Shown: piece by piece, positions 2,338 through 12,986 of the stretch | Numbering within the stretch: position 1 is the stretch's first letter | How the letters are laid out: every line of letters starts with the position of its first letter | Assembly: GCA_028275295.1 (NCBI GenBank) | Contig: JAPWUY010000005.1 | Coordinates: forward strand, 1-14,480 | DNA from: Thermodesulfobacteriota bacterium | GTDB taxonomy: Bacteria > Desulfobacterota > Desulfocorpusculales > Desulfocorpusculum | Reading direction: 5' to 3' | DNA: 14,480 bases | Position numbers and translations under genes: made by a program | The notes under the pieces: model-generated | Databases searched by the model: none | Told to the model about the DNA's origin: nothing | Seen by the model: the letters and a program-made list of their open reading frames with translations, nothing else

Positions 2338-4425
2338 TCATTTTCTCGTGAGCAAGCGGGCGGAGTTTCCAAGAATGACGATATCGGGTAGGGATTGTGC
2401 CGCTGCCGCAACCACGAGGGGGAGGATTCCGAGGGCGGCTAGGGACAACCCCACCAAGTTGTATATCGCCGTGAATGCCAGGTTCATCTTCACAACCCGC
2501 ATGGTGCGCCGCGAGGTGCGCAACACTTCTGGCACAAGATGCCAGTCTTCGCGCATGAGGGCGATGTGGGCGGCCTCCATGGCCACATCTGTCCCAGCTG
2601 CGGCCATGGCAATGCCCACATCAGCTTGGGCAAGGGCCGGGGCGTCATTGACGCCATCGCCCACCATGACGACAGTGTGTCCGCGGGCTTGGAACTCCTT
2701 CACCACCCGGATCTTGTCTTCAGGGAGAAGTTTAGCTCGGCAGAGAACGCCAAGTTCTTGGGCCAGGCGGGCGGCGGTTCTCTCGTTGTCGCCCGTGAGC
2801 AATTCCACGTGACGGATTCCCAGTGCACGCATCTCTTGGAGCGCGGCGGGGACCTCTGGCCTAAGGGTGTCCTCCAATGCGAGGATACCAGCCAACTGAC
2901 CGTCAATCTCGAGAAATAGCAGGGTCTTTCCCTGCTCTTCGAGCTCGGCGGCCATGGGAAATCTTTGCGCTTCTGGAATCATGCGGCTGTTACCGATGCG
3001 AATGCGTTTTCCGCCAATCACACCACTCACGCCCAACCCAGGCACCGCTTCGAAGTATCTGGGCTCTAGCAAGGGGATATTCTCGCATCGAGCGAGGGCC
3101 CGGATGGCCTCTGCGAGGGGGTGTTCCGAATATCGTTCAGCGGATGCGGCCAGGGTGAGGATCTCCTTGCGCGAAAGGCCACATGAGGAAAAGACATCCG
3201 TCACTTGCGGCTGACCCAATGTGAGGGTCCCGGTCTTGTCCACGAGCAGCACGTCGGCCCGGGCGAGGAGTTCCAGATATCTGCCGCCCTTGATGAGCAA
3301 TCCCCGCCTGGCGCTAGCCCCAATGGATGCCAAGATTGCGACGGGAGTTGCCAAGGCAAAGGAACAAGAACAGGCCACGACGAGAACGGCTGCTGTGGAC
3401 AGAGGATTGCGCGTAATGAGAAAGGTCAGGCCGGCGATGGCCCCTACTATCGGCAGATACAGGGCACTGAAGCGATCGGCCACGCTGTGGAGATGGGCCC
3501 GGTGCGCTTCGGCCTCCTCCACCATCTTGATCACCCGTCCAAAGGTTGTGTCCTCTCCCACCTTCTCGGCGCGAATGCGAAGACTGCCCAGCTTGGCAAT
3601 GGTCGCGGCATAGACCCGGCTTCCGGGGATGACCTCTGCGGGCATGGACTCGCCGGTGATGGGAGACTGGTCCACGGTGGCGTGTCCGGCGATGACCTGG
3701 CCGTCCACTGGAATCCTCTCTCCCGGCCGGACAATGACTATCTCACCCACACTGACCTCCCCTATGGGGACTTGGATTTCGACCCCTTGGCGTTCCACGC
3801 GAGCGGTCTGCGGGGCAAGGGATGTGAGCTCTCTCAGGGCGCGACGGGCAGAGTGGGCAGTGAAGCTCTCCACGTAATCGCCAATGCGCATGAACAGAAC
3901 CACGAGGCCGGCAGTAGCCCACTGACCCACGGCTAGTGCGGCAATGACTCCCAGGGTCATTAGGGTATGGGAGGTGACCTTTCCTCTCACTGCGGCGCGA
4001 AGGACATCCATGAAAATGGGATAGCCCCCTGCGACAACGACCGTCAAACCCAGGAGGAAAGGGACGTGCTCATTGAGGATGTCCAAGAATCCAAGGATCT
4101 CCCCAAAGACGACCGCGTTCACGATGAGGCCGAATGTGCCGACAAGGAGGAGAGTCAGTCGGCGGTGGAAACCCTCCGCCGAGGCGAGAGCATCCTTTGG
4201 GGATTCCAAAGGCGAGACCTCATATCCCGCAGTGCGAATGGCAGCGCAGATCTCCGGTAGTCCAATCTTGTCAGGGTCGAACTCCACAATGGCTTTCTCG
4301 GCCCCGAGCAAGACCTGGGCTGACTGGACCCCGGGGAGCTTCTCGATAGCACCTCGAACGTGTCGGGCACACTCGGCACAGTCCATGCCAGAGATAGGGA
4401 TCTCGACGGTTTGGGCTCTCCTCAT
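2338..4425 (-). CDS. P1B-type heavy-metal-transporting ATPase with a CSC membrane motif
   Basis: A 695-residue ion pump of the inner membrane, complete by family standards. It has one N-terminal heavy-metal-associated domain with GMDCAEC (C16, C19), the actuator motif TGES (257-260), the phosphorylation site DKTGT with D396, the nucleotide-domain HP motif (H435-P436) and the hinge GDGVND (D590). Family knowledge: ATP hydrolysis drives export of a soft or transition metal. The membrane metal-site motif is normally CPC, but here residues 352-354 are CSC. Helix 7 keeps Tyr-Asn (Y655, N656), whereas the helix 8 position that reads MxxSS in copper pumps reads QSLPD (677-681). The substrate is therefore not safely copper or zinc. 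The start at 4425 overlaps the stop of a small upstream ORF, and its own SD (GAGGGGG) is about 10 bases away. No metalloregulator gene is next to it. Confidence 0.93.
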   Translation of the reverse strand: MRRAQTVEIPISGMDCAECARHVRGAIEKLPGVQSAQVLLGAEKAIVEFDPDKIGLPEICAAIRTAGYEVSPLESPKDALASAEGFHRRLTLLLVGTFGLIVNAVVFGEILGFLDILNEHVPFLLGLTVVVAGGYPIFMDVLRAAVRGKVTSHTLMTLGVIAALAVGQWATAGLVVLFMRIGDYVESFTAHSARRALRELTSLAPQTARVERQGVEIQVPIGEVSVGEIVIVRPGERIPVDGQVIAGHATVDQSPITGESMPAEVIPGSRVYAATIAKLGSLRIRAEKVGEDTTFGRVIKMVEEAEAHRAHLHSVADRFSALYLPIVGAIAGLTFLITRNPLSTAAVLVVACSCSFALATPVAILASIGASARRGLLIKGGRYLELLARADVLLVDKTGTLTLGQPQVTDVFSSCGLSRKEILTLAASAERYSEHPLAEAIRALARCENIPLLEPRYFEAVPGLGVSGVIGGKRIRIGNSRMIPEAQRFPMAAELEEQGKTLLFLEIDGQLAGILALEDTLRPEVPAALQEMRALGIRHVELLTGDNERTAARLAQELGVLCRAKLLPEDKIRVVKEFQARGHTVVMVGDGVNDAPALAQADVGIAMAAAGTDVAMEAAHIALMREDWHLVPEVLRTSRRTMRVVKMNLAFTAIYNLVGLSLAALGILPLVVAAAAQSLPDIVILGNSARLLTRK

Positions 4426-4695: not shown

Positions 4696-5544
4696 TCAGA
4701 GGAGTCTTGCCTCTCTGAGCACAGGTCTTGGGTCGACCAAGTGTCTTCCGAGCCATCTCGTTGTCCTCGGGAGTTCCGCGGCCAAACCCAAAAGCTCGGT
4801 TATGTAGAGGACAGGGAGGGCGGGCTCCTTTCGGCCTCTCATCTCCAAGTTCACCTGGCACAGGGGGCAGAACACCACTATGCAGTTGGCCCCTGCCCTT
4901 CTCGCATGCTCCCTTATCCTGTCCACCAGGGAGGATACTAGGCCGGGCTTTGTTATGCCCAGATGCGCTCCGCAACACTGTCTCCCATATCCCCAGTGGG
5001 CCACCTCGCCTCCCAATGTCCGGAAGAGATTTTCGAGAAAGCTCTCGTAAGGCCCCACATCGAACCCCGTTATCCATTCTGGCCTGCTCAAAAGACACCC
5101 ATAGTAAAGAGCGCCTTTTATGCCCTTGAGGGGCTTCTTGAGGAGGGATCTCATCTGTTCCGTGCCCACGTCCCTGAGCATTTCCAGGAAGAACTTGAGT
5201 CTCACGCTGCCTCCATAGGGCCTTCCCAGGGCCTTGGAGACTTGTTCCCCCTTCTCGGGGTCCGACTGCACTTGTCTGGCTGCCTCCCTCAACCTCACAA
5301 AGCAGCTCGGGCACATTACCAAAAGTTCCTTGAGGGATTGCTCCTCGGCTAGGAGCAGGTTCCTCATGGCCAGGTTCAATGCCCACCCATGATGGGTGGA
5401 ATGAGCAGGAGAGGAGCCGCAACAATTCCAGTCCTCCAACTCAATGGCCTCGACTCCCAGTGGCCTCATGAGATCCCAGAAGCTTTCTCCCATCTCCTGA
5501 GCGCTGGAGTGCAAAGAGCAGCCAGGATAGTAGCCTACTTTCAT
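4696..5544 (-). CDS. hdrB: Heterodisulfide reductase subunit B-like protein
   Basis: A 282-residue protein of the HdrB family with both cysteine-rich CCG domains intact: C9-x31-C41C42-x35-C78-x2-C81 and C150-x39-C190C191-x34-C226-x2-C229. In methanogen HdrB these ten cysteines bind two non-cubane [4Fe-4S] clusters that cleave the CoM-S-S-CoB disulfide. In bacteria the natural substrate is unknown and may be another disulfide or a protein partner. There is no signal peptide or membrane segment, so it should be cytoplasmic. The start ATG overlaps the HdrC-like stop as ATGA, so translation is coupled. It is the last gene of the central operon. No hdrA is present in the window, so a flavin-based bifurcating HdrABC cannot be assumed. 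The gene symbol marks the family, not a proven substrate. Confidence 0.9.
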   Translation of the reverse strand: MKVGYYPGCSLHSSAQEMGESFWDLMRPLGVEAIELEDWNCCGSSPAHSTHHGWALNLAMRNLLLAEEQSLKELLVMCPSCFVRLREAARQVQSDPEKGEQVSKALGRPYGGSVRLKFFLEMLRDVGTEQMRSLLKKPLKGIKGALYYGCLLSRPEWITGFDVGPYESFLENLFRTLGGEVAHWGYGRQCCGAHLGITKPGLVSSLVDRIREHARRAGANCIVVFCPLCQVNLEMRGRKEPALPVLYITELLGLAAELPRTTRWLGRHLVDPRPVLREARLL

Positions 5545-6071
5545 CTGAGCCTCCTTGTGCCGTTCATTATCCTCTTGATCTGCTCCTCTCCCTTTATCCT
5601 GGATGGCAGCAGTTGAAGTCTTCCCTTGGCCATCATCTTGAATCCCACGGAGAAATCCTCGAAAAACTTGCCCGTCGAGAGCTTGTACTTGAGGACAAGA
5701 CCCAGCTCGTAAACCCTTCCCCAGCGTCTCACCTCTCCCAAAAAGGCCCTGTGAAAGGCGAGTATCTCCGGCTCTGCAACCCTCACACCTGCCTCGAGGG
5801 CCATTTCCCTCAGGGTATCCATCATGGCGGGGATGTGGACCCGGTTAGGGCACTGGCTCAGACAGGAGAAGCACCCGACACAGACCCAGATGGCCTTGCT
5901 TCCCAGGACCTCCTCCCTCATCCCCCTCTGAACCATCCGGATGATCTGATTGGGGTTGTAATCCATTGCCTCCACTACAGGACAACCGCCCCCACAGCTC
6001 AGGCAATGATAGCAGCCCTCGAACCTCTGGCCACTCCTTCGAGAAACCTCCTCCAAGAACTCAGCTGCCAT
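5541..6071 (-). CDS. hdrC: Heterodisulfide reductase subunit C-like ferredoxin protein
   Basis: A 176-residue protein with two [4Fe-4S] motifs, C20-x2-C23-x2-C26-x3-C30-P and C64-x2-C67-x2-C70-x3-C74-P, in the order and spacing of HdrC. The C-terminal third is basic and helical (GKFFEDFSVGFKMMAKGR region), as in HdrC. No membrane segment is seen. Its role should be to pass electrons from a donor to HdrB. The ATG at 6071 follows GGGAGG. The gene lies 24 bases after a response regulator gene and overlaps the HdrB-like gene by four bases. Since HdrA is missing, the donor could be the HdrD-like and cytochrome b pair encoded earlier in the same operon (inference). Confidence 0.9.
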   Translation of the reverse strand: MAAEFLEEVSRRSGQRFEGCYHCLSCGGGCPVVEAMDYNPNQIIRMVQRGMREEVLGSKAIWVCVGCFSCLSQCPNRVHIPAMMDTLREMALEAGVRVAEPEILAFHRAFLGEVRRWGRVYELGLVLKYKLSTGKFFEDFSVGFKMMAKGRLQLLPSRIKGEEQIKRIMNGTRRLR

Positions 6072-6095
6072 GCCCGCCTCCCTCTCTCCACAATT

Positions 6096-6494
6096 TCAAT
6101 TCACCGCGGCAAGGCTCTCCCTCACCTTGCCCAAAAGCTCCTCCGGCACCACTGGTTTTTCCAGAAAAGCGAAGGGCCTTCTCAGTTTCAGGGAGGAGAA
6201 GAAACTCCTGAAATCCTCTATCATGTGGTCGTGGATTCCCGTGACCACGATTATGGGAATATGAGCGAGGCTCTCATCCCTGGATATTTTCTGAAAAAGC
6301 GTCACACCACTCTTTTTTGGCATGAGAAGATCGAGCAGGATCACATCGGGCCTCAGATCTCTTATCCTCTCCAGTGCCTCCTCGGGATCGTTGGCACAAT
6401 GGGCTTCATATCCGTGATCCTCCAAGAGGGTTGCCAAGTATGTGGTCATACTAGGCTCATCGTCCACTATCATTATACGCTTCGCGCCGCCCAT
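6096..6494 (-). CDS. Stand-alone response regulator, DivK/CheY-like (distal copy)
   Basis: A 132-residue single receiver domain. The acidic pocket is D11-D12, the predicted phospho-acceptor is D55 in VILLDLLMPK, the switch Thr is in VVTG (T85), and the conserved Lys is K113 in FLEKP. There is no DNA-binding or enzymatic output domain. The stretch between strand 4 and the FLEKP motif is longer than usual and ends in a hydrophobic, basic segment, a trait shared with the second regulator at 8066-8473. Longer upstream starts exist in frame, but ATG 6494 with GGGGAGG in front gives a normal domain start. It lies 29 bases after the kinase gene and 24 bases before the HdrC-like gene. It presumably takes phosphate from that kinase and acts by protein-protein contact; the target is unknown. 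Confidence 0.92.
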   Translation of the reverse strand: MGGAKRIMIVDDEPSMTTYLATLLEDHGYEAHCANDPEEALERIRDLRPDVILLDLLMPKKSGVTLFQKISRDESLAHIPIIVVTGIHDHMIEDFRSFFSSLKLRRPFAFLEKPVVPEELLGKVRESLAAVN

Positions 6495-6523
6495 ATCCAC
6501 CTCCCCAGTCACCAAATGGAGCC

Positions 6524-8053
6524 TCATCCCGAGGAGAGGCCCGTTTGCTCGGGATACTTTTCTCCAAAGACCGGCTTGCGGGGAATCATGATCTCGAAGA
6601 TCGTCCCCCCTCTGGGCGAACTCCTGTAGCGAAGATGACCTCCGTGTTCCCTCACGATCTTGTTGGTCACTATCAGGCCGAGACCTGTCCCCGCATTGCC
6701 CTTTGTCGTGACCATTTCCCGAAATAGTTTCTCTTTGATTTCCTCTGGCACGCCTGGACCATTGTCCTCCACCTGGAAGCACACCACCTCCTCGAGCTCG
6801 TGGACCCTGAGGAAGACCTTCCCAGGCCCCTGAGCCCCCAAGGAGGCGCAAGCATCTATGGCATTGGAGAGGAGATTGGCCAAGGCTGTGTGGAGCCCCT
6901 TGTGATCTCCCCTGAAGGTCAGGTTTCTCTCCCCCATGGTCTCCAATTGGAGCTCAATCCCCAAGTCTCCGGCCCTCTTTTGGAAGAGGGAGATGACCTC
7001 CAAGGCCAGGTTCACGGGGGATATGTCCTCGAGCTTTGGCCTTCCATGTCTCGAGACGAGGAGGATGTCCTGGAGGAGCCTTCTCGCCATCTCCACTCCC
7101 TCTTGGATCATGGAGAGGCCCTTTTCCGTGAGCTCAGGATCGTTCCTTCTCAAAGCTGACCTGACCACATATGCACCGCCATCCAATCCTCCCAATATGT
7201 TCTTTATGGAATGAGCCGTTATGGCCACCGCTTGCCCGAGAGTCGCGAGCTCCCTCTGGAGGGTCTTCACGGGTGTAATCTCAGTGGACATCTCCATCAC
7301 AGCGTAGGTTGTGCCCCAGTTGTCCTTTATGGGAGCTGTGTAAACAACAACCTCCATGGGCTCTCCTGACCTTCTCCTCACTGTCTCCTCGCTGAAGTGT
7401 ATCTGGCCATCGACAAAGGTCCTCTCCACCGGGCAGGGATCGCATTTCTTGTCCCTTCCTTTGTAAACCTCGTAGCATTTCCTGCCAATGGCTCTTCCGA
7501 ACTCCTTCTGGAAGAGACCGTTTGTTTTTATTATGCGGAAATCCCGATCCTGGACCGATATGTAGCAGGGAACCCCTTCGAAGAGGGCCTTGTACTCCCT
7601 CTGGCTCAGCTCCAGCTGGCTCTGTCTCCTCTTAAAAAGGGTGACATCGGTCGATATCTCGAGAAAGCAGCGCCCTCGGGCGAAGCCCCAAGGAAGAGGG
7701 ATCAATTGGGAAAGCACCTGTATCTTCCCTGTCTGGGGGTTCTCTATGGACTGCTCCCAGCAAAAAGATTTGCCCGTAGAAGCAACCATGTCCAAAGGAC
7801 ATTCCCCACAGGGCTCCTCCCTCAACCAGTGCACCTCGAAGCATCTCATGCCCGGGACCAGTCCCATATCCCTTTTCATGGCCTGATTGGCCCAGAGGAC
7901 CGTCCTCTCCCCTGAGACCACACACGCGTAAGAGGGAAGTAAATTCAGAAGGGACAGTCCTCCTCTGGCCTCCTCCGAGACATTGGCAATTTCCCCCCTT
8001 TCCTCTGGCTCCGGGGCCTCCTTTTTTTTAGGGCTCACAGGCGTCCAGAACAT
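6524..8053 (-). CDS. Cytoplasmic PAS-PAS sensor histidine kinase
   Basis: A 509-residue kinase without membrane segments or a signal peptide, so it senses an internal signal. Two PAS domains (about 33-140 and 150-262) are followed by the histidine box AHSIKNIL (H281) and an HATPase domain with N-box NLLSNAID (393-400), G1 box DNGPG (430-434) and G2 box GNAGTGLGL (452-460). Each PAS domain carries the same cysteine pattern: C71-FEV-x7-C82-GE-C85-P and C193-YEV-x7-C204-DP-C207-P. This suggests a redox, thiol, metal or cofactor response (inference). Start ATG 8053 has only a weak SD, and the gene starts 12 bases after the first response regulator stop, so translation may be coupled. It sits between two single-domain response regulators, its likely partners, inside the redox operon. 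Confidence 0.94.
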   Translation of the reverse strand: MFWTPVSPKKKEAPEPEERGEIANVSEEARGGLSLLNLLPSYACVVSGERTVLWANQAMKRDMGLVPGMRCFEVHWLREEPCGECPLDMVASTGKSFCWEQSIENPQTGKIQVLSQLIPLPWGFARGRCFLEISTDVTLFKRRQSQLELSQREYKALFEGVPCYISVQDRDFRIIKTNGLFQKEFGRAIGRKCYEVYKGRDKKCDPCPVERTFVDGQIHFSEETVRRRSGEPMEVVVYTAPIKDNWGTTYAVMEMSTEITPVKTLQRELATLGQAVAITAHSIKNILGGLDGGAYVVRSALRRNDPELTEKGLSMIQEGVEMARRLLQDILLVSRHGRPKLEDISPVNLALEVISLFQKRAGDLGIELQLETMGERNLTFRGDHKGLHTALANLLSNAIDACASLGAQGPGKVFLRVHELEEVVCFQVEDNGPGVPEEIKEKLFREMVTTKGNAGTGLGLIVTNKIVREHGGHLRYRSSPRGGTIFEIMIPRKPVFGEKYPEQTGLSSG

Positions 8054-8065
8054 CCCCAGGCACCT

Positions 8066-8473
8066 TCAACTTTTTTGAGGGCCACGTCCCAGCACTTTTT
8101 CCACGGTCTCAAGGAGGGCCTCTGGCGCCACAGGCTTTTCCAAGAAAGCTTCTGGGCCTCTTATGGATCTCTCGTAGATGAATTTCCTGAAGTCTATCAT
8201 GGGATACTGTTCCTGGGTGAAGCCAGTTATGATCACTATGGGAATTGCCCCGAGGCGATCGTGTTTCCGGAGGTCCCTGTAGAGCTTTATCCCTGTCTTC
8301 TCGGGCATGAGAAGATCCAGTGTGATGAGGTCGGGGCTCTCCTTTAGGGCCTTCTCCCATGCCTCCTCTGCACTTTGTGAGCAAAATGTCATGTACCCAT
8401 GATCCTGGAGTATGGTGCTCAGGTAAGTGAGCATTGCTGGCTCGTCATCCACTATGAGGATCTTCTTGGTCAT
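8066..8473 (-). CDS. Stand-alone response regulator, DivK/CheY-like (proximal copy)
   Basis: A 135-residue single receiver domain with D9-D10, predicted phospho-acceptor D53 in LITLDLLMPE, T83 in IITG and K113 in FLEKP. There is no output domain. It clearly resembles the regulator at 6096-6494 (shared IVDDEP, LDLLMP, FLEKPV and PEALLE/PEELLG blocks), so the two are paralogues flanking the kinase gene. The true start is ATG 8473, preceded by AGGAGGGG; a longer in-frame extension upstream overlaps the HdrD-like gene and is not supported. The segment before FLEKP is long (about residues 86-109). It is encoded 26 bases after the HdrD-like stop and 12 bases before the kinase start. Similar DivK-type regulators accompany the Tmc and Hmc complexes of Desulfovibrio. 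It may control activity rather than transcription. Confidence 0.92.
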   Translation of the reverse strand: MTKKILIVDDEPAMLTYLSTILQDHGYMTFCSQSAEEAWEKALKESPDLITLDLLMPEKTGIKLYRDLRKHDRLGAIPIVIITGFTQEQYPMIDFRKFIYERSIRGPEAFLEKPVAPEALLETVEKVLGRGPQKS

Positions 8474-8499
8474 TTCCCCTCCTCGGGCCTCCTCCCCCC

Positions 8500-9885
8500 T
8501 CACTCCATTACCAAGGCATCGGCCACAAGCTCGCAGAGGAGTTTCACCTCCACACCCAATTTGTAATGGCGATTTATCTCCGCGAGCTGGTCCACGCAAT
8601 TGTGGCAGGAAGTGGCCACTATCTTTGCCCCGGTCTCGGCGATCTCCTCGGCTTTGACCTTTGCTGCCTCGAGCCTTCTTTTGGCGAACTCGGTCATGGT
8701 CAGGGCACCACCTCCACCACCGCAACAGTAGGAATACTGCCTGTTGTGCCTGAGCTCCACGAAGTCCTCCACAGCAGCCCTCAGGACTATCCTGGGCTCC
8801 TCCAAGATGCCCCCGCTTTTTGCTGCGTTGCACGGGTCATGATATGTGACCCTGTGGGGGTTCTTGGAGGGATCAAGCTTTATCCGGCCTTCCTGGATAT
8901 ACTGGGCGAGGAGCTCCTGGAACCCTATGACCTTGAATTTGGGCTGCCTGCCAAGCCAATTGGCGGCCTCCCACCTAATGGACCGGTAGCCGTGACCACA
9001 CTCCGCCGCGAGGAGGTACTCGCAGCCCAATCTCTCCACATCCTCTGCCTGCCACTGGGCTATCTTCCTCGCGTTGGCCACATCCCCAGTGAAAAGGCAG
9101 TAGTTGGTCGCGTCCCAAAACTTGGTGGATATGGTGTAGCTCTCCTTGGCCGCGTGCAAGATCTTGGCCTCCGCCTGGATGGTCAGGGGATAGTACTTGG
9201 GCTCCCTTGGGTTCATGGTGAGAAAATATTTGGCGCCCTTCTCATTCAGAGGGATGCGGAAGGTGGGATCTTCCAATTCCGCCTGTAGCTCCTCCTCTAT
9301 CCACTGGATGGTCTCTATGAGCTCCTCCTCGGTTATGCCCATATTGTTCCCTGTCTGGAGATGCACATCTATTGTCGCCTTGAGGCCCTCTGGGAGCCTG
9401 TTCATGGCTGCCATCATGTATCTGGCCGTGGACATTATGGAGGCGTAATCCACCCCCATGGGGCAGTTGAAGGAGCATCTCCTGCAGACAGTGCATGCTC
9501 CGAAAATGAGATCGTACATCTTCTCCGCCAGCTCCACATCGAGGTCCCTTCCTCCCACCCAGCGAGGGAAGATCCTCCCCAGCCAGTCGTATCTTTTCTT
9601 GTATACCTTTCGCAGGAGATCGGCTTTGTAGGCCGGGGCGAACTCGGGGTTTTTGGTCGAGGCATAGTAGTGGCAGGCCTCAGTGCAAAGCCCACAGTGA
9701 ACACAGGCTGCCAAAGAAGAGGCGAGGAGCCTGTTCATCCTCTGATCCAAGATCTCGAGCATCTTGGGGATGTCTTGGGGTTCGAAGGCCGGCTTTGGGC
9801 CCTCTTTGGGAGCCACCTCTGGCTTTGGAGCGATGCTCGCCTGGGAAATCTCCATGTCCTTGGCTACCGCCATCTTATCCTGCAT
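8500..9885 (-). CDS. HdrD/TmcB/DsrK-like iron-sulfur oxidoreductase
   Basis: A 461-residue cytoplasmic protein. After a Pro/Lys-rich N-terminal tail (1-40), two [4Fe-4S] motifs appear: C61-x2-C64-x2-C67-x3-C71 and C131-x2-C134-x2-C137-x3-C141-P. The C-terminal half holds one intact CCG domain (C352-x34-C387C388-x38-C427-x2-C430) before a glycine run. The preceding CCG region is degenerate, keeping only isolated cysteines (C263, C296). HdrD, DsrK and TmcB share this layout. The expected role is to carry electrons between the membrane cytochrome b encoded just before it and a cytoplasmic thiol/disulfide or protein partner. ATG 9885 follows GAGGAGG. It lies 93 bases after the cytochrome b gene and 26 bases before a response regulator gene. 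It is a paralogue of the protein at 1-746. The exact subfamily and substrate remain open. Confidence 0.92.
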   Translation of the reverse strand: MQDKMAVAKDMEISQASIAPKPEVAPKEGPKPAFEPQDIPKMLEILDQRMNRLLASSLAACVHCGLCTEACHYYASTKNPEFAPAYKADLLRKVYKKRYDWLGRIFPRWVGGRDLDVELAEKMYDLIFGACTVCRRCSFNCPMGVDYASIMSTARYMMAAMNRLPEGLKATIDVHLQTGNNMGITEEELIETIQWIEEELQAELEDPTFRIPLNEKGAKYFLTMNPREPKYYPLTIQAEAKILHAAKESYTISTKFWDATNYCLFTGDVANARKIAQWQAEDVERLGCEYLLAAECGHGYRSIRWEAANWLGRQPKFKVIGFQELLAQYIQEGRIKLDPSKNPHRVTYHDPCNAAKSGGILEEPRIVLRAAVEDFVELRHNRQYSYCCGGGGGALTMTEFAKRRLEAAKVKAEEIAETGAKIVATSCHNCVDQLAEINRHYKLGVEVKLLCELVADALVME

Positions 9886-9978
9886 CTTGTCTTCCTCCTC
9901 TTCTCACTCGCTGATTTGTTCCCCTCCCTCGGATTTGGAAAAAGTCCATCCAAAAGCAGGGCTCAGGGGATCATTTGC

Positions 9979-10638
9979 TCAACGGAACGCCCTCGAAGGT
10001 CTCGCTATGACTCCCCTGCCTCCGAAATTGACTCCGTAATACCATCTGGCAAAGGGATACGTTATGTAATGGGAAATCTTGCTAAAGGGCACATAGACGA
10101 GGAAGAAAGTCGTGAGGATGAAGAACACCCACATTGCGGTCCTTTCCCCTGTGCCCAGAGCCCAAATGCCGGAGAGGAAGAAAATGTCGAGAAGGGCTAA
10201 GGAGAAATAATCGTCAGGGGAGCTTATGAGGCGTATCTCGGGCTTGGTGATCCTCCTCAGGAGCCTCCTCACCCCAACTACAAATCCCACTGCCATGGCC
10301 ACAACCACCACTTTGGAGAAGGGATCTCCCGGCTCCATTACTCCGAAAGGAATGAGGAAAGTGGAAAGGATGGTCAGGGCCACAGCCAAGTGGAAGAGAG
10401 CGAACTCGAGATAAAAGTACCAGTGGGTCCTCGTGCTCTCCATTGCCCAAGGCATGAATATATTGGCCAAGGAGACCACAGCCCCTTTAGCCGGATCCCC
10501 CTTGAGATGGGCTTTGTCGCGCACTGTTGGCTTCTTGAGAAACCAGATCACTTTGGCCAGATACACTAGACCCATGAAGCTCAGGGCCATGTACTGAACC
10601 TCCTCCATCAAGAACCTCAATCCTCCATCCTCCATCAT
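9979..10638 (-). CDS. NarI/TmcC-like membrane cytochrome b subunit
   Basis: A 219-residue protein with five predicted membrane helices (about 15-35, 74-97, 106-125, 145-162 and 168-188). Family knowledge points to b haem binding and menaquinone/menaquinol exchange. Candidate ligands are H72 and H83 at helix 2, 11 residues apart, and H190 at the end of helix 5; NarI has two His in each, so one is not evident in helix 5. The C-terminal PFSKISHY resembles PFSKMFHV in the other copy at 808-1476, confirming paralogy. The double ATG at 10638 follows GAGGAGG at good distance. It is 25 bases after the TPR gene and 93 before the HdrD-like gene. Together with the latter it should form a membrane-bound redox module. 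Confidence 0.87.
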   Translation of the reverse strand: MMEDGGLRFLMEEVQYMALSFMGLVYLAKVIWFLKKPTVRDKAHLKGDPAKGAVVSLANIFMPWAMESTRTHWYFYLEFALFHLAVALTILSTFLIPFGVMEPGDPFSKVVVVAMAVGFVVGVRRLLRRITKPEIRLISSPDDYFSLALLDIFFLSGIWALGTGERTAMWVFFILTTFFLVYVPFSKISHYITYPFARWYYGVNFGGRGVIARPSRAFR

Positions 10639-10663
10639 GTCCCAGTACCTCCTCTTGGTCTTT

Positions 10664-11230
10664 TCAAGGACGACTCTCCATCCTGGCCAAATACGCCTTG
10701 TCCAGCTCCAGCTGAGGATGTTCCAAGAGCTCGTCCAATCTCACTACCTCCCTGAGATGAACCCTGCACTCCTCGAATTGCCCGAGCTTCTCGAGGCACA
10801 TGGCCAGATTGAGCCTCAAGAGCCTCTGGGTCCCGAGCTCCCCATCGTCGCACGCTAGCTTCAATCCCTTCTGGTAATTCTCCACAGCCCTGTCCAGTCT
10901 TCCCCAGGCCTCGTAAAGCCTGCCAAGGTTATTGAGGGCTATGGCGCACCCATTGGAGTATCCTATCTCCTGGGCTATTCTCATGCTCTGCCTGAAGAAC
11001 TGCATGGCATGGTCGAACTTCCCCCAGCTCTGATAGACCATGCCTATGTTGTTGAGGGATATGCACTCCCATTTCTTGTCACCGAGCTCCCTGGCCTTGA
11101 CAAGTCCGTTCCAGAACTGCTCCAAGGACCTATCGTAGCGCTGTTCCTGGTGGAGTCTGTGGCCCAACTGATTAAGGGCCGCTATCTCCCTTCGGGGATC
11201 GTCTCGTATTTCTTGGGATCTCCTGGCCAT
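10664..11230 (-). CDS. TPR-repeat protein heading the redox operon
   Basis: A 188-residue soluble protein made almost wholly of four TPR-like units of about 40 residues (approx. 15-54, 55-94, 95-134, 135-174). Each has the pattern L-N-x-L/I-G, then W-G-K/R-x-D/F-x-A. Such repeats bind other proteins; a role as assembly factor, scaffold or adaptor for the redox complex or its regulators is inferred. There are no cysteine clusters, signal peptide or membrane segments. ATG 11230 is preferred, with GAGGGAG about eight bases upstream. A longer TTG start at 11278 would lie inside the sigma54 promoter and is rejected. It is the first gene after that promoter and is followed after 25 bases by the cytochrome b gene. 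Confidence 0.85.
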   Translation of the reverse strand: MARRSQEIRDDPRREIAALNQLGHRLHQEQRYDRSLEQFWNGLVKARELGDKKWECISLNNIGMVYQSWGKFDHAMQFFRQSMRIAQEIGYSNGCAIALNNLGRLYEAWGRLDRAVENYQKGLKLACDDGELGTQRLLRLNLAMCLEKLGQFEECRVHLREVVRLDELLEHPQLELDKAYLARMESRP

Positions 11231-11273: not shown

Positions 11274-11289
11274 AGCAATTTTTGTGCCC
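11274..11289 (-). promoter_or_regulatory. Sigma54 (-24/-12) promoter of the redox operon
   Basis: The minus strand reads GGGCACAAAAATTGCT. It has GG and GC exactly ten bases apart, with GGCAC and TTGCT close to the consensus TGGCACG-N4-TTGCW. The predicted start is near base 11263, about 33 bases before the TPR ATG. A CGAGA-N4-TCTCG inverted repeat (11289-11302) abuts the -24 side. Downstream genes have no other obvious promoter. Confidence 0.75.
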
Positions 11290-11626: not shown

Positions 11627-11641
11627 GATGCGATTTGCATC
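11627..11641. promoter_or_regulatory. Third palindromic element at the 3' end of the activator gene
   Basis: GATGC-GATTT-GCATC is a perfect 5-bp inverted repeat. In the frame of the 11352 site it reads GATGCG-ATT-TGCATC (four and five of six matches). It overlaps the last bases of the activator stop codon. More GTTGCA half sites lie at 11606-11611 and 11648-11653. Confidence 0.3.
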
Positions 11642-12986
11642 AATAATGTTGCAAGGTCTGCTCCAGGCCCCTCAGCTTCCTCCATAAGGTGGTCCTGTGA
11701 ATCCCGAGTTCTCTAGCTGCCTTGATCTTGTTGCCTCCGTGTTTTCTCAGCACCTGCAGGATGGTGGATATCTCCACCTCCTTCATGCGCATCTCCTTTG
11801 CCTGCTCCAGTTCCTTTTCCAGCCCCAATAGGTAAGATGGAAGGTGGTGCGGTTGAATATGACCCTCCTTGCACATGATGAGGGCGTGCTCCACTATGTT
11901 CTCCAGCTCTCGGACATTTCCCGGGAAATCGTATCTCTGGAGTATGGCCATGGCCTCGGGCGAGATATCCTGGACCGGTTTAGAGGTCTTGGCGCTGAAG
12001 CGCCTGATAAAGTGCCTCACCAGGAGAGGTATGTCTTCGGGTCTCTCCCTCAAGGGGGGAAGTTGGAACTTGACCACGTTGATGCGATAGTATAGATCGC
12101 TTCTGAACCTCCCTGTTTTCACCATGTCTTCGAGGTTCCTGTTGGTTGCGGAGATAATCCTCACATCCACTCTGACGGGCTCCGTGGAACCTAGGGGGAT
12201 GAACTCTCCATCTTGGAGGACTCTCAAGAGCTTCACTTGGAGGGAAGGACTCAGGTCCCCAATTTCATCCAGAAAGAGGGTCCCCCTGTGGGCGAGCTGG
12301 AACATCCCGGGTTTGTCCCTTCTCGCGTCAGTGAAGGCTCCCCTCACGTAACCGAAAAGTTCAGATTCCAGAAGGCTCTCAGGAAGGGCCCCGCAATTCA
12401 GGGCGACCCATGGCCCCTTTTGCCTGAGGCTCAACTTGTGGATTGCCATTGCGAAAAGCTCCTTGCCTGTTCCGCTTTCTCCCTGAATGAGCACAGAGGC
12501 ATCGCTCCTGCTGACCTCAGGCAATATCTCGAGGAGCTGCAGGATCCTCCTGTTCCGGCTTATTATCCCCTGAAACGAGTACTCCTCCGCCACAGGTGGC
12601 CTCTTCGTGGGCATGTCCCTTATGGTGATTATTCCCCCTGAAAATTCCTCCTGTTGGTTGGTTATGGCCGAGAAACGGATGAGAACCGGGACACTCTGGC
12701 CGTCCGGGGTGGTGACCGAGGCCTCGTAATCCACAAGTGTCCCCCCTCCTTCCTTGAGCCTCGCAACCGGGCATCCCGCACCGCAGTTGGCAAGCCTCAG
12801 AACCTCCCTGCATGTCCTTCCAAGGGCTTCCTTTCTGGAATGGAGGGTGATCTCCTCGGCCCTTCTGTTGAAGTAGACTATCCGAAAACGGCCATCTATT
12901 ATGATGACCCCCTCGCCCAACTGTTCCAGAATCTCCTCACCATTCAACGACTTCCAGCTCCAGCTCGTGCGTTCCCCGTATCTCAT
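11640..12986 (-). CDS. Sigma54-dependent activator, PAS-AAA+-Fis HTH
   Basis: A 448-residue enhancer-binding protein. It has an N-terminal PAS domain (about 18-125), a sigma54-interaction AAA+ ATPase (about 138-372) and a Fis-type HTH (about 405-440). Visible motifs are Walker A GESGTGKE (169-176), Walker B LFLDEIGDL (D240, E241), the sigma54-contact loop GAFTDA (216-221; the consensus is GAFTGA), the arginine-finger region FRSDLYYR (294-301) and GNVREL (356-361). There is no receiver domain, so the signal enters through PAS rather than phosphorylation. The PAS domain carries C59-REV-x5-C68-x3-C72-P, much like both PAS domains of the kinase at 6524-8053. ATG 12986 follows AGGGG. It is the next gene upstream of the operon with the sigma54 promoter, and is therefore its likely activator. 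Confidence 0.94.
   Translation of the reverse strand: MRYGERTSWSWKSLNGEEILEQLGEGVIIIDGRFRIVYFNRRAEEITLHSRKEALGRTCREVLRLANCGAGCPVARLKEGGGTLVDYEASVTTPDGQSVPVLIRFSAITNQQEEFSGGIITIRDMPTKRPPVAEEYSFQGIISRNRRILQLLEILPEVSRSDASVLIQGESGTGKELFAMAIHKLSLRQKGPWVALNCGALPESLLESELFGYVRGAFTDARRDKPGMFQLAHRGTLFLDEIGDLSPSLQVKLLRVLQDGEFIPLGSTEPVRVDVRIISATNRNLEDMVKTGRFRSDLYYRINVVKFQLPPLRERPEDIPLLVRHFIRRFSAKTSKPVQDISPEAMAILQRYDFPGNVRELENIVEHALIMCKEGHIQPHHLPSYLLGLEKELEQAKEMRMKEVEISTILQVLRKHGGNKIKAARELGIHRTTLWRKLRGLEQTLQHY

Follow-up and report, generated by a model that had tools for sequence, protein, structure and literature searches.

This locus raises the question of why a histidine kinase (HK) and two response regulators (RRs) that lack output domains should be encoded in the midst of a row of redox genes. 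The stretch analysed (hereafter the window; 14,480 nucleotides of a Thermodesulfobacteriota bacterium, contig JAPWUY010000005.1) is the entire contig C380 of an uncultured genome (G000; 2.5 Mb, 478 contigs, 81% complete), and the host of the cluster is probably a sulfate reducer. The row had been described in an earlier note as an eight-gene operon, in which the kinase and the regulators lie between a membrane redox module and an HdrC–HdrB pair. We lean, with modest confidence, to reading it as an operon that is driven by sigma-54 and encodes a membrane oxidoreductase of the TmcBC/HmcEF/DsrMK kind together with its own phospho-switch, and sequence comparisons support a conserved, regulated redox module to which HdrCB would have been added locally.

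The eight genes, all on the minus strand, were confirmed by open reading frame (ORF) calls and by Pfam and NCBIfam searches. The gaps between them, taken from the coordinates, are 25, 93, 26, 12, 29, and 24 bases, and HdrC and HdrB overlap by 4 bases, so that the same-strand row with gaps of at most 93 bases and one overlap stands as first described. The unit reaches further upstream than the eight genes, to a sigma-54 site and an activator gene. Genomes, contigs, and loci compared are given G, C, and L numbers; the order is represented by three genomes, G000 (the window's own), G001, and G002, the last of which, its HdrD-like gene agreeing in coordinates and score, we take to be Desulfarculaceae bacterium JdFR-97 (MTPG01000003.1; L032, L044). 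The features are as follows, in the order of transcription.

11640..12986, minus strand: sigma-54 activator (PAS-AAA-Fis; Pfam Sigma54_activat, PAS, HTH_8), at the same position in G001, G002, and G233
11275..11288, minus strand: sigma-54 type -24/-12 element (GGCAC-N5-TTGC), with the TPR start codon 44 bases downstream
10664..11230, minus strand: TPR protein of 188 amino acids (Pfam TPR_12), also in G001, G002, and G233
9979..10638, minus strand: cytochrome b membrane subunit, HmcE/TmcC-like (NCBIfam HmcE 57 and TmcC 56 bits, both below cut-off; no Pfam match)
8500..9885, minus strand: HdrD-like catalytic subunit of the TmcB/HmcF/DsrK kind, with two 4Fe-4S motifs and one CCG domain
8066..8473, minus strand: RR1, single receiver domain of DVU0259_DivK type, located where the HdrD-like subunit of relatives has its fused receiver
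6524..8053, minus strand: PAS histidine kinase with two C-x10-C-x2-C motifs
6096..6494, minus strand: RR2, again a single receiver domain, whose sister is the G001 RR2
5541..6071, minus strand: HdrC-like protein with two 4Fe-4S motifs, a lineage-specific addition
4696..5544, minus strand: HdrB-like protein with two CCG domains, a lineage-specific addition

Receivers and CCG-domain enzymes

Among 151 distinct strings of HdrD-like protein that scored 250 or more against the profile, partial readings included, 11 carry a receiver at the C-terminus (Pfam-confirmed for L128). The fused loci read cytochrome b, HdrD–receiver fusion, and HK, in most cases with an RR next, and this order maps onto cytochrome b, HdrD-like, RR1, HK, and RR2 of the window, indicating that RR1 stands in the position of the fused receiver. 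All 11 fused receivers were closer by score to RR1 than to RR2, and they share the broad group of RR1 in a tree of receivers (support 85). Among the matches listed for a fused query (the best 120 of 3742 at E 1e-50, the query itself included), all 120 carried both PF02754 and PF00072; the sources listed include deltaproteobacteria, Acidobacteria, Methylomirabilales, Latescibacterota, Myxococcales, and others, and one fusion bears the database name "Reductase, iron-sulfur binding subunit containing response regulator receiver". In the 32 of these 120 that were aligned, the phospho-acceptor Asp was retained in 30 and the Lys in all 32. The window has the same HdrD-like enzyme with the same neighbours and a receiver in the same place, but there the receiver has a gene of its own, which follows after 26 bases.

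The fusion to the catalytic subunit is the strongest sign that receivers of this type act on the enzyme itself, and suggests that some respiratory enzymes may be switched directly by phosphorylation. Of the phospho-control at protein level that had been proposed earlier, possibly through the TPR protein, the first part gains from the fused receivers of relatives, and no evidence was found for a route through the TPR protein. Regulators beside Tmc and Hmc genes are already published; for the receiver–HdrD fusion, and for the general association of receivers with CCG-domain genes, no publication was found among open-licence full texts.

Both RR1 and RR2 consist of a single receiver domain, in accordance with the earlier description of two output-less regulators around the kinase. 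The best family for both is NCBIfam NF045717 "DVU0259_DivK" (102.8 bits for RR1 and 95.8 for RR2, under the 160-bit cut-off), which is named after a Desulfovibrio gene. A search of 395 genomes of the phylum identified receivers of this type at 85 places in 53 genomes (E at most 1e-25; the window's two included). A CCG-domain gene is located within 5 kb of 61 of the 85, within 2.5 kb of 50, and within 1 kb of 36, nearby contig ends being scored as misses and at least one place being the fused receiver itself. The chance expectation within 5 kb is at most 7.4% (from 1110 CCG domains in the roughly 164.6 Mb of 41 of these 53 genomes). By the same detection none of 40 PhoB-like regulators, hand-picked from a list of PhoB-model matches covering 31 of these genomes, was within 5 kb of a CCG gene (one was at 5.8 kb); the Fisher value of 3e-16 (61/85 vs 0/40) is overstated, since places in related genomes are not independent.

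The partners of these receivers are Tmc- or Hmc-like genes (L257-L262, L264-L267, L271), HdrC–HdrB–HdrA sets with HK-HK-(Usp)-RR upstream (L318-L320, L323, L326; group f16), HdrD-like genes with in-frame TGA (L152, L156, L157), DsrMK-like pairs (L301, L303, L306), and a cytochrome b–HdrC fusion with HdrB-RR-HK-RR (L268). The Tmc and Hmc labels of relatives' loci are given by gene order and CxxCH counts, L260 and L266 having the order with no multiheme ORF flagged. The DsrMK-labelled rows did not cluster in the receiver tree (4 changes needed), and no claim is drawn from them. The HdrD-like genes with in-frame TGA, at L152 (G000:C299), L154 (G000:C232), L156, and L157, are candidates for selenocysteine; at L152, L156, and L157, a kinase and two DVU0259-type receivers come next.

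The analogy with the Tmc locus, pointed out in the earlier note, holds good: the RRs match NF045717 best and, according to passages of PMC5109826, the Tmc and Hmc genes of Desulfococcus multivorans adjoin response regulators, a Usp, and kinases, as in D. vulgaris. Like Tmc (TmcABCD; Desulfovibrio, Desulfobacterales), including the Tmc-like loci with a 4-heme protein (L258, L259, L262, L271), the window combines a cytochrome b and a single-CCG HdrD-like subunit with DVU0259-type receivers, kinases, and a Usp nearby; it differs in having no multiheme TmcA, a TmcB match below cut-off, a kinase flanked by two receivers, and the added HdrCB. With Hmc (HmcABCDEF) it shares an HmcE/HmcF-like pair, and the Hmc-like loci L257, L261, and L265 have Usp-RR-HK downstream of the HmcF-like gene and a 16-heme protein upstream, whereas neither a 16-heme cytochrome nor any other Hmc subunit was found among the window genes tested. 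The f16 HdrABC operons resemble the window in a DVU0259-type receiver directly before HdrC–HdrB, but all five continue with HdrA, two of them (L319, L326) were seen to have an MvhD-like gene, and no cytochrome b or HdrD-like membrane module is labelled in these stretches. To our knowledge, no function has been assigned to the receivers and kinases beside Tmc and Hmc; rrf1 of D. vulgaris is presumably a response regulator.

The membrane module and its likely control

The HdrD-like subunit scored 285.5 bits against TmcB, 277 against HmcF, and 270.2 against DsrK (NCBIfam), below every equivalog cut-off (735, 750, and 400 bits, respectively). HdrD carries two CCG domains. A single CCG stretch was found in 8500-9885, and the name "HdrDE-like" first given to the module is therefore corrected to one nearer to TmcBC/HmcEF/DsrK. 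Conserved His residues are present in the cytochrome b by alignment, and the cytochrome b/HdrD-like pair looks as if it works like the Tmc, Hmc, and Dsr membrane modules but forms a separate branch. No window ORF of at least 60 amino acids contains more than one CxxCH (one with a single CxxCH is on the opposite strand, 1622-1954). Among solved structures, one chain came closest in sequence, the iron-sulfur-binding reductase 9ojn_A (1042 residues), which from its equal length we take to be the EtfD of PMC13083937; in passages of that source, the clusters and b heme of EtfD form a wire between ETF and menaquinone.

A DsrC domain was found at the C-terminus of 5 of the 151 HdrD-like proteins, all of Chloroflexota (L065, L071, L073, L074, L075; Pfam-confirmed for two), in the same C-terminal position as the fused receivers, and this fusion points to a DsrC-like partner for the enzyme. 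Tmc is predicted to reduce DsrC in passages of PMC10553843, and passages of PMC4215793 state that as of 2014 no partner of Tmc and Hmc in the cytoplasm was known. AprA is present in the window's genome, and G001 and G002 have both dsrA and dsrC.

Nowhere else in the window is the sigma-54 type sequence of 11275-11288 matched exactly (0.13 matches expected). With no more than one mismatch allowed, and none in GG and GC, a site was identified in the activator–operon gap of all nine loci tested (the window, L151, L044, L291, L292, L293, L306, L140, L141; 0-14 of 500 shuffles each); six of the nine belong to one family or to three genera closely related to each other and are thus not independent. 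By sequence, the locus has both a -24/-12 element and the adjacent activator of a sigma-54 operon, and the product of 11640-12986 is likely to be the transcriptional activator of this operon. Three sigma-70 promoters were found within the operon against 2.5 expected and were not used as evidence. The motif C-x10-C-x2-C occurs in both PAS domains of the kinase, and at least once in each of 44 kinase rows downstream of HdrD-like genes (34 distinct genes, 10 rows being shorter second readings); from this cysteine motif, the kinase may be a sensor of redox or metal state.

The activator and site preceding the operon would suit a role in transcription, in which the kinase and the receivers leave the enzyme itself untouched and work as phosphate sinks or by way of the sigma-54 activator, and rrf1/rrf2 downstream of hmc in D. 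vulgaris are said, in passages of PMC10924467, to encode regulators of hmc expression. The RRs, however, are without output domain, the input domain of the activator is PAS and not a receiver, and many relatives carry a receiver on the catalytic subunit as a fusion; we consider such a role unlikely, though worth keeping in view. Since the operon has a sigma-54 transcription switch of its own, the output-less receivers would be left free for control at the protein level.

Conservation of the core and placement of HdrC and HdrB

The core order of sigma-54 activator, TPR, cytochrome b, HdrD-like, RR, HK, and RR is kept in all three genomes of the order, and the HdrD-like proteins of G001 and G002 are 90% and 84% identical to that of the window. 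In G002 the core is followed by two sigma-54 activators and then by Usp, DsrM-like, and DsrK-like genes, without HdrBC; the HdrC–HdrB pair of this genome (71% and 64% identity) is at C13, flanked by opposite-strand genes. In G001, contig C3 stops about 30 codons into HdrC, behind RR2, and contig C6 opens with an HdrC C-terminus (64.5% identity over 31 residues to the window's HdrC) and its stop, followed by a hairpin and T run (by eye) and then by Usp, DsrM-like, and DsrK-like genes. Judging from these contig ends, the G001 locus likely reads RR2, HdrC, Usp, DsrM-like, and DsrK-like, without HdrB, the assembly being broken at a repeat. The final 83 bases of C3 are 98.8% identical to a part near the start of an orphan HdrC at C4 (L195:9630-10241), which points to gene conversion or a recent duplication.

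A close HdrD-like protein (E at most 1e-100) was found in 39 of the 395 genomes. At a profile score of 500 or more, the loci examined contain 92 distinct genes for close HdrD-like proteins. For the 72 with at least 3 kb downstream (20, G001's included, were dropped for short flanks), the 5 kb downstream on the same strand contained an RR, separate or fused, together with an HK in 23, Usp in 18, HdrC in two, and HdrB in one, the window itself. Desulfomonile-type loci read cytochrome b, HdrD, RR, HK, and Usp. These counts indicate that the core is of a conserved kind and the HdrCB part local. At L293 (11145-11774), a HEAT-repeat protein, with ORFs of similar size at the same place in L291, L292, and L306, is encoded between Usp and RR, and is possibly another protein–protein adaptor, like the TPR gene.

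An undescribed complex of all eight genes, a single enzyme leading from quinone through cytochrome b, HdrD-like, and HdrC to HdrB with a dedicated kinase and receivers, would agree with the unbroken row, the 24-base gap between RR2 and HdrC, the 4-base overlap, and the lack of terminator-like sites in the operon-strand gaps (the four minus-strand sites are all intragenic; 11 sites on both strands, 7.7 expected). A membrane-linked HdrCB with such a cassette does exist in G083, where a NarI-type cytochrome b fused to an HdrC-like 4Fe-4S part is followed by HdrB-RR-HK-RR (L268:6122-11583, G083:C103), an independent case. Against the complex, the core of G002 lacks HdrBC, the HdrC–HdrB pair of this genome lying elsewhere, HdrB is downstream in 1/72 loci, and G001 seemingly has HdrC without HdrB, behind a terminator-like hairpin that was seen by eye (weak evidence, its fold being no stabler than shuffles, z -0.04, and the site being absent from the terminator scan). 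One conserved eight-gene complex, as proposed in the earlier note, is thus unsupported, and we hold it to be improbable. Of the independent placement in relatives against which that proposal was to be judged, the HdrBC part was largely observed.

In the receiver tree, the window's RR2 pairs with its G001 counterpart as sister (support 97) and groups with RR2 of G002 and with the receiver directly before HdrC–HdrB–CCG protein–HdrA in G001:C5 (support 85). The stretch EDFR.FF..LKL..P is common to this group (read by eye; G002 deviates at one place), and HdrC has a receiver of RR2 type immediately before it not only in the window but also in G001:C5 and at the G001 contig end. This kinship and the shared stretch suggest that RR2 may serve HdrCB; a strict link is opposed by G002, which keeps RR2 without adjacent HdrCB.

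HdrB has the two CCG domains and also matches solved HdrB chains by sequence; the scores of HdrB (112.6 vs 345 bits) and HdrC (71.7 vs 160 bits) are both under the NCBIfam equivalog cut-offs. No HdrA was found among the 14 window genes scanned, as had been noticed earlier; an HdrA-like protein of 1133 amino acids with a GltD-like (glutamate synthase small subunit) part is encoded elsewhere, at C31 of the same genome (L158:4600-8001), together with HdrB and an HdrD-like protein. Its counterpart in G001:C5 (L199:4322-7717; 1131 amino acids) is 82% identical, and both resemble the HdrL fusions described for Desulfobacterium autotrophicum in passages of PMC2702500. Pairing of HdrCB with this HdrA or another flavoprotein encoded elsewhere, the pair being merely co-transcribed with the membrane module, is given little credence: HdrC–HdrB pairs do occur without adjacent HdrA or kinase–receiver cassette (G000:C253, G001:C1, G002:C13) and HdrCB together with HdrA is found in G001:C5 and the five f16 loci, but the RR2-type receiver right before HdrC hints at a link to the cassette.

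HdrBC is reported in place of QmoC for Desulfarculus in passages of PMC6137086. Such a substitution was rejected for G001, in which QmoC (462.7 bits vs cut-off 300) is encoded behind an HdrA-type protein in the aprA region; the result covers G001, the aprA contigs of G000 and G002 stopping before that gene.

Beyond HdrB, a heavy-metal P-type ATPase (2338-4425) and a second membrane module of Usp, DsrM-like cytochrome b, and DsrK-like protein (3-2095; truncated at the contig end) are encoded in the window. G002 has the latter trio close to its core, and in G001 it lies at the beginning of C6.

Proposed mechanism and its meaning

In the mechanism that we propose, the cytochrome b would exchange electrons with a quinone, presumably menaquinone, and the HdrD-like subunit would relay them through its two 4Fe-4S clusters to the CCG site, acting on a cytoplasmic thiol/disulfide partner, the best candidate for which is DsrC or a DsrC-like protein. 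The PAS kinase with its cysteine triad would sense redox or metal state and phosphorylate both receivers. RR1 might then dock on the HdrD-like subunit, in place of the fused receiver of relatives, and tune its activity or assembly, and RR2 is of the subtype that is also placed directly before HdrC–HdrB. The HdrC–HdrB pair would have been added behind RR2 in the lineage of the window, probably as a second redox outlet.

Several observations weigh against this reading. The RR and HK pair is missing in 49/72 close HdrD-like loci and is not essential, HdrCB is not conserved in the locus, and for 24/85 receivers, some of them near contig ends, no CCG gene was found within 5 kb. The cysteine triad is not specific to the cassette, being present in 48/53 kinase-like ORFs near it and in 47/100 others in a wider test, and the receiver tree, built on 131 columns, leaves 28 of 69 inner branches open. 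Neither DsrC nor DsrA above cut-off was found in the window's genome, which is 81% complete. An AlphaFold model of the fused protein P0123 has two folded domains (mean pLDDT 83.8, pTM 0.70), with uncertain placement of the receiver. The docking of an unfused RR1, what phosphorylation brings about, and the part played by HdrCB are steps that we infer.

A more general proposal is put forward tentatively, as a possibility that we would not yet favour. The respiratory oxidoreductases with CCG domains (Tmc, Hmc, HdrABC, HdrD-like) may form a class in which a dedicated kinase, together with DVU0259-type receivers, switches the enzyme at the protein level; here a single kinase of the window might serve RR1 for the cytochrome b–HdrD-like enzyme and RR2 for HdrCB, steering electrons of the quinone pool between two disulfide sites. 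The fused receiver makes a puzzling gene neighbourhood directly testable, by measuring the activity of a respiratory oxidoreductase against phosphorylation of its receiver. If phosphorylation does change that activity, anaerobes could redirect electron flow by phosphotransfer, with no need to wait for transcription.

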